Shown here one piece after another: positions 45,572 through 56,223 of a stretch of DNA of 64,000 nt. Below the pieces are notes generated by a model. That model was not told the DNA's origin, made no database searches, and was given only the letters and a program-made list of their open reading frames with translations. Position numbers and translations under genes: made by a program. Numbering within the stretch: the stretch's first letter is position 1; each line of letters begins with the position of its first letter. The DNA comes from Dysgonomonas hofstadii (lineage in GTDB: Bacteria > Bacteroidota > Bacteroidia > Bacteroidales > Dysgonomonadaceae), in NCBI RefSeq assembly GCF_014196915.1, contig NZ_JACIEP010000006.1, positions 186,001-250,000 on the forward strand. The letters are read 5' to 3'.

Positions 45572-45759
45572 AAAATGACTTCAATTTGTCTAACCTTAAA
45601 ATCTTGTGCCAATGAAAAAATTATAGTTAACCTTTAAAAAGAAAAGCCGGAAAACAATTGCTTTCCGACTCCCAGAGTTTTCAATTTTAATAACCTTGCC
45701 AACAACCTCATATCTTGGCGGATCCGGTTGAAGGCGATAAATTAAAAACAATCAAATGT

Positions 45760-48214
45760 ATGAAAAAATACAGATTTAGAATTCCAATTTCCAAACATTT
45801 ATTACTTATTATGAGAATAAGCTACTTTTTATTCTTTATTGGAATATTACAAACACAGGCAACAAACACTTATGCTCAAGAAACGTCACTCACAATCCAT
45901 GAGAACAGTATCGAACTTGAAAAACTCTTTAAGAAGATAGAAGCGCAAACCGACTTTTACTTCTTTTATAGCAACGATAAGATCGATAAAAGCATAAAAG
46001 TCAATATCAACGTGGAGAATAAGACTATTTATGAAATATTAAATGTTGTATTGAAAAACACCAATATCATTTATCAGGTAAAAAATAAGGCTATTATTTT
46101 AAATCTGGATAAGGATTTGAAACAGCTTCAGCAACCTCAACAACCTTCCAGGAAAAAGATTACAGGAACAGTGGTTGACGAACAAGGTATACCCATCACC
46201 GGAGCCAGCATAGCAGAAAAGGGCACGACAAATGGGGTCATGACCGATGCTGACGGCGGTTTTACTATTTCAGTATCCGAGAATGCAATTATTCTCGTAT
46301 CATTTGTCGGTTATATAGCCCAGGAGATTGCCGTAGGTAATCAAAGTGAGTTGAATATATTGTTGAGAGAAAACCTGAATATATTGGATGAAGTGGTGGT
46401 TGTCGGATTCGGAACTCAAAAGAAAGTGAACCTGACGGGATCTGTTAGTACAATCGACTCGAAGATGTTGGAAAACAGACCTGTTATGACGGCTGCACAA
46501 GCGCTACAAGGTGCGGCTGCCGGATTGCAGATAACACAGAATTCCGGAAGCATGGAAAGTAGAGCCAGCATAAATATCCGTGGCGTAGCTACTATTGGAG
46601 AAGGTTCGAGCGGGAGTCCACTGATATTGATAGACGGCATGGAGGGCGACATCAATGCCATCAATCCGCAAGATATAGAAAACATATCGGTATTGAAAGA
46701 TGCTGCCGCATCTTCTATCTATGGCTCGCGCGCACCTTTTGGTGTCATATTGGTTACGACAAAAAAAGGACGAAGCGGAAAAGCAACATTAAACTATAAT
46801 AACAGTTTTCGCTGGACTTCTCCGATGTTATTGCCTAAGACTGCCGATTCCTATACGTTTGCATTATTCTTGAATGACGGATGTATAAACGGTGGAACTA
46901 CTCCTTTTTTCTCAGATGATAAGATACAGAGAATATTAGATTATCAAAACGGGAAAATAACAGAGTCTATTGTTCCTAATCCGAGCAATCCGTCCAAGTG
47001 GGGAGACGGCTATGTTTATGGGAATGATAATGTAGACTGGTTCAAAGCTATTTTCAGGGATGAGGCTTTCTCCCAGGAGCACAATTTAAGTATCAATGGT
47101 GGCTCCGAAGATATGCACTATTTTGTCTCTGCCAACTATTTGGGACAAGATGGGCTAATGCAATTTAACCAGGACAAATACAACCGTTATAGCAGTACAG
47201 TAAAGCTGGGTGCGAAAGTGACAGATTGGTTGCAATTTAATTATAACAGCCGTTTTATACGTGAAGATTACGGTCGTCCTACCGATCTTACTAATAATTT
47301 ATTTTATTATCTGGTTATCCGAGGCTGGCCGACATTGCCGTTGTATGACCCTAATGGCCAACTTTATAGTTCTCCGACCCCGGCATTAGGCTTGCGTGAC
47401 GGTGGGCGCGACAATAAAAGAACAGATAACCTATACCAGCAGGCGCAACTTGTCTTTGAGCCGGTTAAAGGTTGGAAGACGTTTGGAGAGTTTAATTACC
47501 GGATAGAGAATATAGAGCGCAGTTGGGATTATCAAAAGTTATACAACCACGATGTAGATGGTAATCCATACGTTTACAGGAGCGGCTCACATGTATATGA
47601 AGGCCATATTACAAGTAACTTTATGAATACCAATATCTATTCGGAATATAGTAAACAATTAAAGTCAGGCCATAATTTTAAGGGAATGGTCGGTTTCCAG
47701 GCCGAACTTATGAAATATAAGACTATTTCGCTACAGCGCGAAGGCATAATTGTATCTACACTTCCATCGGTCGATCTTACATCCGGTATCGACGCCAGCG
47801 GAAAAGAAGTTACACCTACTGTTAGTGGAAGTTTCTCGGATTGGGCGACAGCCGGTTTCTTCGGCCGTATCAATTACGACTATAAGCAACGCTATCTGGC
47901 AGAAATAAATTTACGTTATGACGGAACTTCACGTTTCAGATCTGATAAACGTTGGAAGATGTTCCCTTCTTTTTCTTTAGGTTGAAATATTGCACGCGAA
48001 AATTTCTGGCAACCGTGGGAACATATGGTAGGAACATTGAAGGTAAGGGCTTCTTATGGAGAATTGGGTAATCAGAATACAACAAGCTGGTATCCTACTT
48101 ACCAAACAATGTCTGTCAACGCATCCAACGGCACCTGGCTGATAAACGGCGCAAAACCGAACACAGCATATGCACCCGGATTGGCAAGTTCATTATTAAC
48201 ATGGGAACGGATTA
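45760..48214 (+). pseudogene. SusC/RagA-type TonB receptor, decayed
   Basis: Begins (ATG 45760) as a full FecA-type SusC with signal sequence, STN domain (TSLTIHENSIELEKLFKKIE), CarboxypepD_reg domain, plug (LDEVVVVGFGTQKKVNLTGS, ASINIRGVATIGEG) and barrel strands. A TGA at 47983-47985 replaces the Trp codon in SFSLGWN, and the frame then continues in phase (NIARENFWQPWEHMVGTLKVRASYGELGNQ...SLLTWERIK) until about 48214, where homology stops and unrelated sequence follows. Roughly the last quarter of the barrel and the whole susD partner are missing. It is therefore dead or at best a signal-only fragment. Spacer before it carries the usual leader hairpin (45648-45671). Confidence 0.9.
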
Positions 48215-48547
48215 AAATTTGCACAATAACGCTCTTTCTTCTTAACACCACTTACACTACGAACTGGTTTATACAGCAGGAAAACCCGGATATTCAGGTT
48301 TTTCTGTCTGTTGGCCAGTGTTTGTATTTTATAAGAAAAATCTGGGATAAAACATTGACAATAAGACAAAAAGAATTTGCAGCAGTTTCCACAGGTAACT
48401 GCATAAAGTGAACACAAAAAGAATATCCACAAAAGTGAATTAAATGGATGACTAAAATCAATGTATCGTGCAAAACACAGGAAGAAATATATTTACTCCC
48501 ATATTAAATAAAAATTTTAACTTTGGTATTGATAAAACAATACTATA
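48215..48547. other. 333-base region after the susC break
   Basis: Sequence after the break has no similarity to a receptor. Short open frames on both strands (for example 48196-48432 on the minus strand) show no recognised domain. Likely junction debris plus the promoter region of the next gene. Confidence 0.5.
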
Positions 48548-49973: not shown

Positions 49974-51131
49974 ATGATTATCGGAATTCCTAAAGAAATT
50001 ATGCCCGGTGAAGCTCGAGTTTCAGCAACCCCTGACACCGTGAAAAAATTTATCACAGACGGTGCAACCGTATTAGTAGAACAGAACGCCGGAGCGGGAT
50101 CATTCTTCTATGATGACGAATACGTAAAAGCCGGAGCACAGATTATAGCCTCGGCAGAAGAGATTTTCCAGAAAGCCGATCTGATACTTAAAGTAAAAGA
50201 ACCATTATTCAACAAGAACTACAATAAACATGAGGTAGACCTGATGCACGAAGGTCAATACCTGATCACATTTATACATCCGGCTTCCCCGGTAAATCAT
50301 GAAATGGTGAAAATGCTGGCAGCCAAAGGCGTTATCAGTATGACACTTGACGGTGTTCCCCGTATTTCCCGTGCCCAAAACATGGATGCCTTGACATCGA
50401 TGAGCACATGTGCTGGATACAAAGGCATTTTGATTGCAGCAAATGACATGGCTAAATTTATTCCTCCGATGTTTACTGCCGTAGGTTCGGTACAGCCAGC
50501 CAAAGCCCTGGTTATAGGCGTCGGTGTCGGTGGGTTACAGGCCTTAGCCACAGCCAAAAGGCTAGGAGCCATCACTTATGCGACAGACATTCGTCCTGCG
50601 GCTATGGAACAAGCCCAAAGTTTAGGAGCCAAAATAATAGACATGGGAATACCTGCTGATCTGGCTGTAGGAACAGGGGGGTATGCCAAAAACCTGCCCG
50701 AAGAGTGGATCATAAAGGAACGGGAGAAATTACGCGAGGTTATAAAAGACATGGACATTGTCTTCTGTAGCGCATTAGTTCCCGGCAAAATGGCACCGAT
50801 ACTCATCACTGAGGATATGGTAAAAGAGATGCCTAACGGCTCCGTACTGGTAGACATATCTATCGATCAGGGAGGAAACTGCGATATTACTCCTGCAGGA
50901 ACGAAAGATGTTAAACATGGGGTAACATTGATAGGGATCAAAAACATTCCGGGATTGTTGCCGACCAGTTCTACCTGGATGTTTGCCAACAATGTGTACA
51001 ATCTCGTTAAATATCTGACAAAAGATGGTAAAATAGAACTCGACAGAGCCGACGAGATTGTAGACTCCATCCTTGTTTCCATCGATGGTCAGGTAGTACA
51101 CACAGGAGCACTGGAAGCCATGAATAAATAA
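49974..51131 (+). CDS. pntAA: Proton-translocating transhydrogenase, alpha subunit part 1 (domain I)
   Basis: 385-residue soluble NAD(H)-binding subunit (domain I) of the split transhydrogenase, like the Rhodospirillum and Thermus forms. It swaps hydride with NADP(H) bound to domain III. Seen: MIIGIPKEIMPGEARVSATPDTVKKF at the start, the RQD-loop-like YKGILIAANDMAKF region, and the NAD fingerprint VIGVGVGGLQALATAKRLGA (about residues 180-200). Length typical. Cotranscribed with pntAB and pntB: 12 and -4 bases apart. Confidence 0.96.
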   Translation: MIIGIPKEIMPGEARVSATPDTVKKFITDGATVLVEQNAGAGSFFYDDEYVKAGAQIIASAEEIFQKADLILKVKEPLFNKNYNKHEVDLMHEGQYLITFIHPASPVNHEMVKMLAAKGVISMTLDGVPRISRAQNMDALTSMSTCAGYKGILIAANDMAKFIPPMFTAVGSVQPAKALVIGVGVGGLQALATAKRLGAITYATDIRPAAMEQAQSLGAKIIDMGIPADLAVGTGGYAKNLPEEWIIKEREKLREVIKDMDIVFCSALVPGKMAPILITEDMVKEMPNGSVLVDISIDQGGNCDITPAGTKDVKHGVTLIGIKNIPGLLPTSSTWMFANNVYNLVKYLTKDGKIELDRADEIVDSILVSIDGQVVHTGALEAMNK

Positions 51132-51143
51132 TAGAATCGAATA

Positions 51144-51452
51144 ATGAATCCAATATTTCTGATAATAATATTTGGGATAACGTCGATTGTCGGTTATCTC
51201 ATAATAAAGAATGTGCCAAGTCTTTTACACACCCCTTTAATGACAGGAATGAATGCCTTGGCAGGAATCTGCCTTCTGGGAACAATTGTCACTGTGGGGT
51301 ATTCGTATCAAAACGGAGGTACAGGCCTGGTTATCGGTCAGATTTTCGGTGGAATAGGGGTTATCCTGGCCACGGTGAATGTAGTTGCCGGATTTGGAGT
51401 CACACACCGGATGCTGCAAATGTTCAACCCTAAGAAAAAAGACAAGGAATGA
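51144..51452 (+). CDS. pntAB: Transhydrogenase alpha subunit part 2 (membrane part of domain II)
   Basis: 102-residue membrane protein with three helices: IFLIIIFGITSIVGYLII, GMNALAGICLLGTIVTVGYSY and GLVIGQIFGGIGVILATVNVV. It forms part of the proton channel with PntB. It overlaps the pntB start by four bases, so the two are translated together. Normal length for the split subunit. Confidence 0.94.
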   Translation: MNPIFLIIIFGITSIVGYLIIKNVPSLLHTPLMTGMNALAGICLLGTIVTVGYSYQNGGTGLVIGQIFGGIGVILATVNVVAGFGVTHRMLQMFNPKKKDKE

Positions 51453-53410
51453 TGACAGAAACAATATACTACATTGTTTGCAGTGTACTCTCGCTACTAT
51501 CTTTACTCGGTATATCCATGATGAGTAAGGTACGCACATCTGTAGCAGGAAATCTGATCCTTTCATTTTGTCTTCTGGCCGGAGTAATAGTAACACTGAT
51601 ATACTACCAGATATTCGAAGTAACAACGATTTACGCATTCATACTTGCCGGCACAATTGTAGGTGCCATTATGGCCTATAAAGTGCAGATGATACAGATG
51701 CCACAGACAGTAGCGATGCTGAACGGGCTGGGAGGATTGGCAGGAGGTATTGTCGGGATACTGACACTTATCAATATCGGGGTAAAACCATCCAATTATC
51801 CTCTTTTTGTCAATGTCACTGCCACTTTGGCTATTGTGGTGGGTATGGTTACATTTGTCGGGAGTATGGTAGCCGCAGGAAAACTGCACAGGCTTATATC
51901 CCAAAGGCCTATTGTGTGGAAAAATCATCATCTGATTTCTGTCATACTGATTATAATGATGATCGCATCCGTCATATTTGCATTCTTTATAGGGGATGGT
52001 TACGGTATTATATCCAATATCTACTTTATATTGATATTAAGTACTGTTTCAGGTTGTCTGTTTGGACTAACATTCTCGATCCGGATAGGTGGCGCCGACA
52101 TGCCGATAACAATATCTTTATTGACTTCTTTGGCCGGAGTTGCCGCCGCTATCGCCGGAATGGCAATAGGAGACCTTCTTGTAGTCGCTATCGGAGGCAT
52201 TGTTGGTTCATCGGGACTTGTACTCACACAGATTATGTGCAGGGCTATGAATCGTAGCTTAATGACCATACTGATGGGTAAAACGTCTGTTGCTCCGACT
52301 AAAGAAACAGCCGCAAAACAAGGAATAGCGAAACCTAAAGAATCTGACACTTCAAAGGAACAATCACTTAGCGAAGTTGTAAGAGCCGCCAAACGGGCGA
52401 TCATTGTTCCCGGCTATGGAATGGCGCTGGCACAGGCGCAGCATCAGGTAAAGCAACTGGCCGATGCTCTGGAAAAACAAGGCACGGAAGTTAGATACGC
52501 CATACATCCTGTGGCAGGAAGAATGCCCGGACACATGAATGTGTTGCTGGCCGAAGCTGATGTCGCTTACGACCAACTGTATGAAATGGATGCCATAAAT
52601 GACGATTTCAAGGATACGGATCTGGTCGTGGTCATAGGAGCAAACGATGTGCTGAATCCGGCCGCGAAAGATGCCGTAGACACACCGATATATGGAATGC
52701 CGATACTGAATGTGGATCTGGCAAGACATATCATTATCTGTAACTTCGACCTGAAACCGGGTTATGCCGGGGTGCCCAATCCGCTTTATGAAATGAAGGA
52801 AAAGGTATTGATGTTATTGGGCGATGCCAAAGAATCGCTGAATAAGATAATCGGTGAAATAAATACCGGTAAAACATCTGTTTCCGAACCTGCATCTGAA
52901 GGCATAAACATAGGGGATGTTACAAAATCCGCCAAACGGGCGATCATTGTTCCCGGCTATGGAATGGCGCTGGCACAAGCGCAGCATCAGGTAAAGCAAC
53001 TGGCCGATGCTCTGGAAAAACAAGGCACGGAAGTTAGATATGCCATACATCCTGTGGCAGGAAGAATGCCCGGACACATGAATGTGTTGCTGGCCGAAGC
53101 TGATGTCGCTTATGACCAACTGTATGAAATGGATGCCATAAATGACGATTTCAAGGATACGGATCTGGTCGTGGTCATAGGAGCAAACGATGTGCTGAAT
53201 CCGGCCGCGAAAGATGCCGTAGACACACCGATATATGGAATGCCGATACTCAATGTGGATCAGGCAAGACATATCATTATCTGCAATTTCGACCTGAAAC
53301 CGGGTTATGCCGGGGTGCCCAATCCGCTTTATGAAATGAAGGAAAAGGTATTGATGTTATTGGGCGATGCCAAAGAATCGCTGAATAAGATAAAAAATGA
53401 ATTAAATTAA
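51449..53410 (+). CDS. pntB: Transhydrogenase beta subunit with duplicated NADP(H)-binding domain III
   Basis: 653 residues; normal Bacteroidetes PntB has about 460-470. Residues 1 to about 275 are the membrane domain II with the usual helices. Then comes a hydrophilic linker, a complete domain III (about 313-467), a second diverged linker, and a second complete domain III (about 494-648). Each copy has the NADP fingerprint VPGYGMALAQAQHQ, the GANDVLNP segment and the LKPGYAGVPNPLY loop. The two copies share 458 of 465 bases at an offset of 543 bp, with one amino-acid change (Leu for Gln in NVDxARH). Linkers differ (39 and 23 residues from GKTSV to the domain). Both copies look functional. 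The duplicate is real, not a misassembly, because copies and linkers differ. Confidence 0.95.
   Translation: MMTETIYYIVCSVLSLLSLLGISMMSKVRTSVAGNLILSFCLLAGVIVTLIYYQIFEVTTIYAFILAGTIVGAIMAYKVQMIQMPQTVAMLNGLGGLAGGIVGILTLINIGVKPSNYPLFVNVTATLAIVVGMVTFVGSMVAAGKLHRLISQRPIVWKNHHLISVILIIMMIASVIFAFFIGDGYGIISNIYFILILSTVSGCLFGLTFSIRIGGADMPITISLLTSLAGVAAAIAGMAIGDLLVVAIGGIVGSSGLVLTQIMCRAMNRSLMTILMGKTSVAPTKETAAKQGIAKPKESDTSKEQSLSEVVRAAKRAIIVPGYGMALAQAQHQVKQLADALEKQGTEVRYAIHPVAGRMPGHMNVLLAEADVAYDQLYEMDAINDDFKDTDLVVVIGANDVLNPAAKDAVDTPIYGMPILNVDLARHIIICNFDLKPGYAGVPNPLYEMKEKVLMLLGDAKESLNKIIGEINTGKTSVSEPASEGINIGDVTKSAKRAIIVPGYGMALAQAQHQVKQLADALEKQGTEVRYAIHPVAGRMPGHMNVLLAEADVAYDQLYEMDAINDDFKDTDLVVVIGANDVLNPAAKDAVDTPIYGMPILNVDQARHIIICNFDLKPGYAGVPNPLYEMKEKVLMLLGDAKESLNKIKNELN
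52386..52850 (+). repeat. Tandem domain-III repeat in pntB, copy 1
   Basis: 465-bp direct repeat, 7 base differences to copy 2 at 52929-53393, offset 543 bp (in frame). Confidence 0.95.
52929..53393 (+). repeat. Tandem domain-III repeat in pntB, copy 2
   Basis: Partner of 52386-52850; ends at the PntB C-terminus. The similarity extends weakly to the GKTSV word at the start of each linker (about 52278 and 52868), hinting that the duplicated unit first included the linker. Confidence 0.95.
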
Positions 53411-54888: not shown

Positions 54889-56223
54889 TTACACTATGCC
54901 CTGCGCCATAACCGCCTTTGCAACTTTCATAAATCCGGCAATATTAGCACCTTTCACATAGTTTACATAGCCATCTTTTTCTGTTCCGTATTTCACACAG
55001 TTTTCATGGATATTCTTCATAATCCATTTCAGCTTTTCATCTACCTGTTCAGAAGACCAGCCCAAACGTTCTGAATTTTGAGTCATTTCCAATCCCGACA
55101 CCGAAACCCCTCCGGCATTGGCAGCTTTACCCGGAGCATAAAGGATCTTGGCTTTTTGGAACATCTCTATTGCCTCCGGCGTAGATGGCATATTGGCTCC
55201 TTCCGAAACCGCAAAGATCCCGTTTGACACAAGTTTTTCAGCATCTTCGCCACTTATCTCATTCTGGGTAGCCGAAGGAAGTGCAATGTCACCTTTCTCT
55301 CCCCAAGGACGGGCATTCGGAACATATTTACATCCGTAAGTATCGGCATATTCTTTAATACGTCCTCGGTATAATTCCTTCAATTCTTTTACATATTCCA
55401 GTTTTTCTGTAGTAATACCCTCCGGATCATATATATATCCGCTCGAATCAGACATGCTTACAGGTATTGCACCCAGTTCAATTAGCTTTTCACACGTATA
55501 TTGAGCTACATTACCCGAGCCCGACACAAGGCATTTTTTACCTTTAATATCGATATTCTTCGTTTTCAGCATTTCCAAAAGGAAATATACATTTCCATAT
55601 CCGGTAGCCTCTGGACGAATTAACGAACCTCCGAATGTTAGGCCTTTTCCTGTGAATGTACCCGTAAACTCATGAGCCAGCTTGCGATACATACCGAAGA
55701 AATAACCTACTTCGCGCCCTCCTACACCTATATCTCCGGCTGGGACATCGGTATCAGGTCCTATATGACGCCACAGTTCTGTCATAAATGCCTGACAAAA
55801 ACGCATGACCTCGGCACTTGATTTTCCTTTCGGATTAAAATCAGAACCACCTTTTCCTCCTCCCATCGGCAAGGTTGTCAGCGAATTCTTGAAAGTCTGC
55901 TCAAATGCCAGGAATTTAAGAATAGAAAGATTAACAGATGCATGCAAGCGCAAGCCTCCTTTGTATGGGCCGATCGCATTGCAGTGCTGTATACGATATC
56001 CCATATTAGTATGTGTATTTCCCTTATCGTCTACCCATGTTACACGGAAAGAAAAAATTCTGTCCGGAATACATAGTCTCTCAATAAGATTTGCTTTCTC
56101 AAATTCAGGGTGTTGATTGTAAACTTCTTCGATTGATTCTAAAACTTCCTGCACTGCCTGATGGTATTCTGGCTCGTTTGGAAATCTGCGCTTCAAATCC
56201 GCTAGAACTTGTTCTGATTTCAT
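54889..56223 (-). CDS. gdhA: NADP-type glutamate dehydrogenase
   Basis: 444-residue hexameric enzyme that makes glutamate from 2-oxoglutarate and ammonium when ammonium is plentiful. Active-site block LPMGGGKGGSDFNPKGKS with the catalytic Lys, GPDTDVPAGDIGVGGREVGY, the nucleotide fold VSGSGNVAQYTCEKLIELG and SEGANMPSTPEAIE are all seen. Length is typical of the 50 kDa type I enzyme. Own promoter and terminator. It complements GS-GOGAT in the window. Confidence 0.98.
   Translation of the reverse strand: MKSEQVLADLKRRFPNEPEYHQAVQEVLESIEEVYNQHPEFEKANLIERLCIPDRIFSFRVTWVDDKGNTHTNMGYRIQHCNAIGPYKGGLRLHASVNLSILKFLAFEQTFKNSLTTLPMGGGKGGSDFNPKGKSSAEVMRFCQAFMTELWRHIGPDTDVPAGDIGVGGREVGYFFGMYRKLAHEFTGTFTGKGLTFGGSLIRPEATGYGNVYFLLEMLKTKNIDIKGKKCLVSGSGNVAQYTCEKLIELGAIPVSMSDSSGYIYDPEGITTEKLEYVKELKELYRGRIKEYADTYGCKYVPNARPWGEKGDIALPSATQNEISGEDAEKLVSNGIFAVSEGANMPSTPEAIEMFQKAKILYAPGKAANAGGVSVSGLEMTQNSERLGWSSEQVDEKLKWIMKNIHENCVKYGTEKDGYVNYVKGANIAGFMKVAKAVMAQGIV

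Follow-up and report, generated by a model that had tools for sequence, protein, structure and literature searches.

Among the closest described systems to the locus studied here is the canonical proton-translocating NAD(P) transhydrogenase in its three-subunit form (R. rubrum and T. thermophilus, PntAA-PntAB-PntB). For the canonical enzyme, the parts of PMC5742237 available to us describe the swivelling of domain III, an asymmetric domain III in the dimer, and the Asp-Arg pair of domain II (D213 and R265 in E. coli), and KRS is a named motif of the NADP(H) site of PntB in the accessible part of PMC9529548. The window, that is, the whole 64,000-nucleotide stretch of Dysgonomonas hofstadii DNA that was analysed, holds a locus with the same gene order, domain I and 4TM subunit, the same domain II fold and coupling residues, and the same domain III fold with its GYGMA, AGRMPGHMN, GAND and GYAGV motifs. 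It is unlike the canonical system in having two tandem domain III copies, N-x-D instead of KRS, a longer linker, a domain I with equivalents of the alanine dehydrogenase (AlaDH) residues K75, H96 and D270, and a PntB that scores under the NCBIfam PRK09444 equivalog cut-off (566.6 bits against 689).

Carriers in tandem are also found in E2 (dihydrolipoyl transacetylase) of the pyruvate dehydrogenase complex, where near-identical lipoyl domains on flexible linkers visit several active sites. The domain III array shares with these a varying number of carriers (for E2 chains see PMC8421416, in the part accessible to us). It differs from them in the lack of any sequence relation, in a bound nucleotide in place of lipoyl-lysine and in its presumed proton coupling at the membrane, and the comparison is best taken as an analogy of working, not of membership.

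The locus and its two domain III copies

The genes for domain I, the 4TM subunit and domain II with domain III form one operon in the window and in its relatives (Pfam PF05222 and PF01262, PF12769 and PF02233, respectively). The features of the window are as follows.

49974..51131, + strand: PntAA-type domain I subunit, 385 aa (Pfam AlaDh_PNT_N and AlaDh_PNT_C; solved structures; residue tallies)
50196..50198, + strand: codon of domain I K75, equivalent to AlaDH Lys75 (residue tally)
50277..50279, + strand: codon of domain I H102, equivalent to AlaDH His96 (residue tally)
50865..50867, + strand: codon of domain I D298, equivalent to AlaDH Asp270 (residue tally)
51144..51452, + strand: PntAB-type membrane subunit, 102 aa (Pfam PNTB_4TM, 86 bits)
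51449..53410, + strand: PntB of 653 aa, membrane domain II followed by two domain III copies in tandem
51449..52276, + strand: domain II of PntB, transmembrane helices (model helices; Foldseek)
52277..52385, + strand: linker 1, poorly ordered in the model (pLDDT <50 at residues 280-303)
52386..52850, + strand: domain III copy 1, 465-bp repeat block
52742..52750, + strand: N-F-D (residues 432-434) at the K-R-S place of copy 1 (alignment to E. coli PntB; loop tallies)
52851..52928, + strand: linker 2 (pLDDT <50 at residues 475-484)
52929..53393, + strand: domain III copy 2, 465-bp repeat block that differs from copy 1 at 7 bases
53285..53293, + strand: N-F-D (residues 613-615) at the K-R-S place of copy 2

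The PntB reading frame is open from its ATG start, is covered by Pfam PNTB in two stretches, and is the sole PntB match in the 5.04-Mb assembly, where it lies in the interior of contig C6. The second domain III copy starts 543 bp after the first. Of the seven mismatches between the blocks six are silent and one gives L424Q, and identity drops immediately outside the 465 bp. The linkers (about 36 aa and 26 aa) are alike only in fragments, although linker 2 retains a trace of linker 1 in 14 of 15 bases around Gly-Lys-Thr-Ser-Val. The first-pass annotation had described two in-frame domain III units per protomer, with a single amino-acid change between them and diverged linkers beside them, and this description holds. 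The assembly might still conceal one more identical unit.

In the AlphaFold model of the window PntB (mean pLDDT 77, pTM 0.49) the domain II helices lie between residues 4 and 276, and strands and main helices follow in the same order in both domain III copies. Foldseek matched domain II to that of T. thermophilus (TM 0.87-0.90 by target) and domain III to solved domain III chains (target-normalised TM 0.76-0.86). The structures closest to domain I are those of R. rubrum domain I; its model superposes on domain I chains at a TM of about 0.55 and an rmsd of about 9 Å, perhaps owing to a hinge difference or to limited model quality.

Spread of the arrays and history of the copies

Two or more domain III copies were present in 54 of 80 relatives (29 with two, 21 with three and 4 with four), a count that is not a frequency because these were the best 80 of 338 relatives on genome contigs for a two-copy query. 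An oddity unique to the window strain was rejected, since arrays were found in many relatives. All array-bearing PntB proteins fall within one deep clade of Bacteroidales and Clostridia, which comprises 98 of the 145 PntB sampled and whose members have 1 to 4 domain III copies. In the sampled sets all 61 multi-copy PntB, from two phyla, are of the N-x-D type, and no array occurs among the 46 canonical KR copies, all of which are single; the canonical set was drawn from Bacteroidota and Bacillota-type genomes only. The tree of the 145 proteins contains at least 12 changes between single and multiple copies and at least 29 changes of copy number, with 1, 2 or 3 copies in near relatives. The array is not required in the clade, because some of its members have a single copy, including two (G596 and G369) whose genomes were assembled into roughly one contig.

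In the Bacteroidota sample 137 of 296 genomes passed the PNTB cut-off, and among these 137 two above-cut-off domain III matches were present only in the window's own genome; G881 has an additional 54-aa domain III-like fragment below the cut-off. The domain III loop was read in only 10 of the PNTB loci of this sample. Eight loci (L002, L003, L004, L121, L136, L140, L141 and L144) were dropped before counting as duplicates, fragments or truncated, and broken frames in the Porphyromonas-centred sample (e.g. G992, G1000, G1003, G1004) were excluded from the array count.

The first-pass annotation knew of no described PntB with tandem domain III, and we likewise found none in the open-licence PMC papers searched; the layout is not mentioned in the accessible parts of PMC7614955, PMC9529548, PMC5742237, PMC5026163, PMC4691113, PMC5378342, PMC8473912 and PMC10127272. 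That annotation had been ready to give up its claim if the double form were both widespread and already described. The first half applies, because the layout, at 1-4 copies, is common in the whole clade; for the second, no description was found.

The window copies differ at 1 of 69 fourfold sites, compared with 32 to 37 of 58 to 61 between window and Parabacteroides domain III and 27 to 29 of 60 between window and Dysgonomonas PF1-14 domain III. Because the copies are so close at these sites while the linkers share only fragments, gene conversion between the window copies fits. Recent whole-unit duplication also happens in the clade, since the second and third linkers of the Dysgonomonas PF1-14 PntB are identical. 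In the tree of domain III copies (FastTree, midpoint-rooted; for the other trees FastTree and a quick IQ-TREE were used, with long branches flagged) copies group by protein in 33 of the 61 multi-copy proteins, so that about half have homogenised copies. In a subclade of nine PntB the similarity between first and last copy is no more than 53-65%, and these look specialised and not interchangeable. The non-monophyly of the copies in the other 28 of the 61 proteins and the dispensability of the array in single-copy clade members both speak against a carrier array.

The domain III copies are joined by poorly ordered linkers rich in A, E, S and T. The inter-copy linkers (n=104) have a median length of 31 aa (23-54), and these four residues make up 44% of them, as against 23% of domain III. 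The landmark distance across linker 1 has a median of 49 residues in 97 clade PntB versus 39 in 45 canonical PntB.

The N-x-D loop, the proton path and domain I

In the alignment to E. coli PntB, N-F-D replaces K-R-S in both window copies. N-x-D was found in 189 of 189 clade domain III copies, all of which have lost the K and R, and KR[SG] in 46 of 46 non-clade copies; the other domain III site motifs are largely conserved. The N-x-D loop most likely weakens recognition of the 2'-phosphate, so that domain III would carry NAD(H) or would not be strict for NADP(H). Since the replacement occurs in every clade copy read, the NADP(H)-binding label given by the first-pass annotation is doubtful. The opposite exchange, with domain I taking NADP, is unsupported, since 93 of 93 clade domain I retain the NAD-fold Asp that comes just after strand two, which in the window is D205.

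Diaminopimelate dehydrogenase, an NADP(H) enzyme, is encoded directly upstream in 8 of the 8 loci of one subclade whose contigs extend that far, and its adjacency suggests an NADPH role there. This neighbour speaks against lost NADP(H) specificity, the case for which is built on one motif. Lrp-type regulators lie upstream in five loci. Neighbour genes were rejected as a guide to the substrate: among the 225 ORFs listed, 94 were co-oriented neighbours and were scanned, the commonest family accounted for 7 of these 94, and the 25 commonest families (out of 116 for Pfam and 305 for NCBIfam) include no alanine gene.

In the membrane domain the equivalent of E. coli D213 is kept in 98 of 98 clade proteins and that of R265 in 93 of 98, and the window has both. 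The proton path includes H91 and N222 of E. coli. Where E. coli has H91, N stands in 97 of 98 clade PntB and in 39 of the 47 canonical ones; at the N222 place 85 of 98 have N and 12, the window included, have T. Loss of the proton path in the clade as a whole is unsupported, T at this place being a minority state.

Domain I has co-diverged with the clade PntB. The window protein keeps R133, Q135 and D138, the RQD loop of transhydrogenases (in the clade R133 is R in 91 of 93, and Q135 and D138 are kept in 93 of 93). At the same time its R15, K75, H102 and D298 are equivalent to AlaDH R15, K75, H96 and D270, and 93 of 93 clade domain I carry equivalents of all six of R15, K75, H96, D270, Q271 and N300 without exception. 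This set includes one locus twice (L008 = L195) and leaves out L002, L059, L082 and L181 as well as L004, L058 and L185, which have no domain I hit. The equivalents of K75, H96, D270 and Q271 occur in 0 of 21 canonical (KR-clade) domain I, where the Asp270 place holds E in 10, S in 8, A in 2 and G in 1; R15 is present in 21 of these 21 and N300 in 9. The His is also found at the His96 place of R. rubrum domain I, which is outside the set of 21. Domain I thus resembles AlaDH in the six residues and the NAD-fold Asp; it is unlike AlaDH in its RQD loop, in having membrane-subunit and domain III partners, and in scoring below the alaDH TIGR00518 cut-off (182.8 bits against 391.85), nearer PntA than AlaDH.

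What the array may do

We consider it rather probable that the locus encodes a transhydrogenase-type complex of a deep, mostly anaerobe clade, in which the tandem domain III forms a tethered carrier array and strictness for NADP(H) has been weakened. Each domain III would be a tethered carrier of bound nicotinamide nucleotide that moves between domain I, where hydride is transferred, and domain II, where the proton is coupled. With an array, one domain III could be at domain I while another is at domain II, as the first-pass annotation had proposed, or reloading nucleotide. Carriers would then be occupied more of the time, as happens with tandem lipoyl domains in 2-oxoacid dehydrogenases, and recombination between the copies would keep them interchangeable.

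That one domain III was misassembled as two is hardly credible. Contigs of some relatives do end inside domain III (L003, L057, L059, L065, L067), which marks the region as hard to assemble; however, repeats usually collapse in assemblies and do not multiply, and an artefact is unlikely because the linkers are unique and because arrays occur in six genomes that were each assembled into roughly a single contig (G532 with 4 copies; G525 and G997 with 2; G1011, G991 and G988 with 3), on which ground it was rejected for the class. The in-frame joins, the seven differences and the interior contig position point the same way. It is possible, though rather unlikely, that the enzyme works as an ordinary NADP(H) transhydrogenase and that its repeat is unstable and almost neutral. 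Unequal recombination would then add and remove domain III, the extra copies would be tolerated passengers or act weakly through dosage, and N-x-D would be an alternative way of binding NADP(H). The frequent changes of copy number (29), the close relatives with 1, 2 or 3 copies, the diaminopimelate dehydrogenase genes and the largely conserved remainder of the domain III site are in keeping with this. A neutral repeat is nevertheless hard to reconcile with 61 multi-copy proteins from two phyla inside the clade and 0 among 46 KR proteins in the sampled sets, or with the retention of loop and site motifs in the copies read; the loss of K and R from all 189 clade copies tells against ordinary NADP(H) binding.

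A proton-coupled amino-acid or 2-oxo-acid dehydrogenase, with a functional AlaDH-type site in domain I and NAD(H) carried by domain III, seems improbable to us. Hydride would pass between the substrate, NAD(H) on domain I and NAD(H) on domain III, and protons through domain II. The invariant AlaDH residues argue for it, His96 and Asp270 being reported as essential in mycobacterial AlaDH (PMC4691113, in the part available), as do the Lrp-type regulators and the N-x-D loop, with which a strict pairing of NAD and NADP is no longer called for. The tree rooted on AlaDH, in which canonical domain I is nested inside clade domain I, points the same way, but long branches are flagged there. The RQD loop and the profile scores place domain I nearer PntA, R15 and in part N300 are common to canonical domain I, and a retained ancestral pocket, whose His recurs in R. 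rubrum, may only hold nicotinamide. Moreover, the residue set maps uncleanly on activity because K75 and H96 are missing from three of the seven AlaDH-type proteins aligned, including one (L200) above the alaDH cut-off, and the 25 commonest neighbour families hold no alanine gene. We regard as similarly doubtful the form of this proposal in which the clade is an NADH-driven 2-oxo acid reducer (pyruvate and ammonia to alanine, or a relative) and not an NADPH-making transhydrogenase, the NAD(H) on the N-x-D array supplying hydride, whose transfer would drive protons out of the cell. If true, the dehydrogenase reading would give fermenters an ion-pumping electron sink, and the canonical transhydrogenase would have specialised afterwards, losing the amino-acid site and acquiring KRS.

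The natural series of 1, 2, 3 and 4 domain III units per protomer offers a test of rate and coupling against carrier number in an enzyme whose domain III movement between two sites and dimer asymmetry are questions still being worked on. The N-x-D loop offers a test of the choice between NADP and NAD in an enzyme helping to set the NADPH/NADH ratio in many cells, and the domain I with AlaDH residues may have survived as an intermediate that links soluble dehydrogenases with proton pumps. The hosts are anaerobes of gut, mouth and rumen whose energy economy attracts broad interest, and in them both the mode of running and the nucleotide carried may depart from those of the textbook enzyme.

The tandem form of PntB and its spread

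The pnt operon of the window is built of three genes, and the last of them ends in a repeat:

49974-51131, domain I (dI) gene, first of the three-gene operon
51144-51452, gene of the 4TM membrane subunit, second of the operon
51449-53410, PntB gene, third of the operon, its C-terminal end being two copies of domain III (dIII)
52386-52850, dIII repeat block, copy 1, exactly 465 bp
52929-53393, dIII repeat block, copy 2, exactly 465 bp

The two blocks differ at seven bases, one of which alters an amino acid, confirming the claim of the first-pass annotation that this PntB carries two dIII units. The predicted structure, a model of the single protein that is silent on the complex, shows each dIII copy as a complete fold, the linkers that join them being poorly ordered. 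The whole assembly of the strain yielded no second PntB match. Near the operon, on the opposite strand, lies a gene that by eye is glutamate dehydrogenase-like (54889-56223, minus strand). At 45715-48411 (plus strand) a 756-aa ORF is followed by a short ORF, the start of which resembles by eye the interior of a SusC-type outer-membrane receptor; the SusC-type gene there may be truncated or frameshifted.

The tandem-dIII form is a class and not an accident, and it is widespread. A scan of relatives, one genome per species, gave 338 related stretches, and among the best 80, which were analysed, the dIII profile found one copy per PntB in 26, two in 29, three in 21 and four in 4, some of these counts being shortened by contig ends. 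PntB matches were present in 3 of 25 genomes of the window's own genus, where locus L002 has every linker in common with L017, a record from Dysgonomonas, so this genus is probably Dysgonomonas. Among the 247 genomes of a Bacteroidales sample, 64 passed the PNTB cut-off, with arrays (at least two tandem dIII in one PntB) in G000, G138, G212 and G228. The cut-off was also passed by 49 of 398 in a phylum sample around a Christensenella MAG; the 30 loci listed from it comprise 13 with at least two dIII, 11 with a single dIII of N-x-D type (Asn-x-Asp in place of the KRS motif) and 6 with a single dIII keeping KR. Of 26 genomes sampled from the genus to which the Porphyromonas circumdentaria record belongs, 20 passed; in nine of the frames, all unbroken, there are two to four dIII, the remaining frames being interrupted by contig ends or frame breaks.

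Arrays occur in six genomes whose contig is about as long as the full genome, and assembly error is therefore ruled out as their source. The contigs of loci L003, L057, L059, L065 and L067 stop inside dIII, which would be expected of a repeat that disrupts short-read assembly, and the dIII counts of MAGs may be too low. Massilibacteroides vaginae MV12 possesses two separate array-type pnt operons (L009, L010), with dIII copies 96–99% alike within each, and genome G283 encodes two types of PntB (L023, L194), an N-x-D form with three dIII and a KRG form with one, each with its own domain I. The first-pass annotation knew of no described PntB with this layout; we found no description of tandem dIII in PntB in the open-licence literature searched, but as a form it is common, with two to four dIII in many relatives.

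Probable homogenisation and duplication of the copies

Between the two window copies 1 of 69 fourfold sites differs; the corresponding counts are 32 to 37 of 58 to 61 against Parabacteroides relatives, and against Dysgonomonas PF1-14 27 to 29 of 60. The two window linkers have only fragments in common, including 14 of 15 bases around Gly-Lys-Thr-Ser-Val, a stretch that appears to mark the beginning of the unit first duplicated. Divergence is far greater in the linker than at silent positions of the domain, which makes homogenisation of dIII after duplication the simpler account for the window, where the first-pass annotation had left the choice between gene conversion and recent duplication. 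Recent duplication of the whole unit is nevertheless what the sequence of PF1-14 indicates, its second and third linkers being identical.

In 33 of 61 multi-copy PntB the dIII copies group with those of their own protein. In the Parabacteroides loci L006 and L007 fourfold differences amount to 18/69 and 13/67 by position and to 25/62 and 25/63 across positions; the copies thus form separate lineages by position, and conversion is not constant. Within one clostridial-type subclade, which has nine members, the identity of first to last dIII is 53–65%, with NYD or NFD in the first and NLD in the last, so the copies there seem to have specialised.

The nucleotide site of domain III and its partner domain I

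In dIII structures the KRS motif contacts the 2'-phosphate. The NADP(H) site of E. coli PntB is described with this motif, at 424–426 (PMC9529548); in the alignment both window copies have N-F-D there, which places the earlier label of NADP(H)-binding domains in doubt. In place of K and R stand N and an aromatic or aliphatic residue, followed by an invariant D, a change which, if NAD-binding Rossmann folds are taken as a guide, suggests that the 2'-phosphate is no longer demanded. Over 144 loci the loop reads N-[Y,F,L,M]-D in 189 copies and KR[S,G] in 46; all 61 multi-copy PntB are N-x-D, and every KR PntB has a single dIII. In a 145-protein tree the two groups occupy opposite sides of one branch of support 100 (98 vs 47 rows), and the tree requires at least 12 switches between single and multiple dIII and 29 copy-number changes. 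An Arg before the GGADMP motif of domain II (dII) is found in 97 of 98 N-x-D PntB vs 1 of 47 canonical ones; in the window it is residue 212 (52082-52084), directly before the motif.

Domain I follows the same division. N-x-D partners match the window dI with 359–845 bits, the fragment L082 (200 bits) excepted, and KR partners with 201–331. In an alignment with seven proteins of alanine dehydrogenase (AlaDH) type, equivalents of AlaDH Arg15, Lys75, His96, Asp270, Gln271 and Asn300 are present in 93 of 93 N-x-D dI, whereas in canonical dI Lys75, His96, Asp270 and Gln271 are each found in 0 of 21, Arg15 in 21 and Asn300 in 9. Among the seven reference proteins themselves Lys75 and His96 are present in four and missing from three, and locus L200 scores above the alaDH cut-off without either. 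Mycobacterial AlaDH reportedly loses its activity when His96 or Asp270 is mutated (PMC4691113). The N-x-D partners retain the RQD loop and the Asp of the NAD fold. R. rubrum dI, outside the counted sets, aligns with the His of N-x-D dI but carries Q where Lys75 would stand and E in the position of Asp270. On an AlaDH-rooted tree canonical dI branches from within the N-x-D dI, next to L050 and L053 (SH-aLRT 95; some long branches were flagged); the AlaDH residues may therefore be the older state. The window dI sides with PntA over AlaDH in family scores, below both equivalog cut-offs, and its predicted fold groups with R. rubrum dI.

If dIII and dI both worked on NAD(H), plain transhydrogenation would be gainless, and this is what lends interest to the AlaDH-type residues. 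Under standard conditions, roughly 35–40 kJ per mol is released when NADH reduces pyruvate plus ammonia, an amount that suffices to push a proton. A bold reading, which we consider improbable, is that dIII carries NAD(H) and that an AlaDH-type reaction in dI drives the proton; Lrp/AsnC-type regulators upstream of domain I in L018, L020, L030, L044 and L046 (five loci by similarity to the regulator of L020, three by family search) are weakly compatible with amino-acid control. However, diaminopimelate dehydrogenase, an NADP(H)-dependent enzyme, lies immediately upstream of domain I in all eight loci of the divergent-dIII subclade with upstream sequence (L040, L050–L055, L060), an argument for NADPH, and the first 25 neighbour families listed include no alanine gene.

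A possible working of the array

The canonical enzyme is described as having dIII between dI and dII, where it is thought to swivel, the two dIII of the dimer being oppositely oriented (PMC5742237, PMC10127272). The linker to the first dIII has a median of 49 residues in the N-x-D clade vs 39 in canonical PntB, and those between copies a median of 31; the longer N-x-D linkers are rich in A, E, S and T. The idea that one dIII could face dI while another faces the membrane stands. Tandem lipoyl domains (PMC8421416) provide a working analogy: a protomer with at least two dIII, tethered by longer linkers, would be able to use different copies simultaneously for hydride transfer (at dI), for proton coupling (at dII) and for the exchange of nucleotide.
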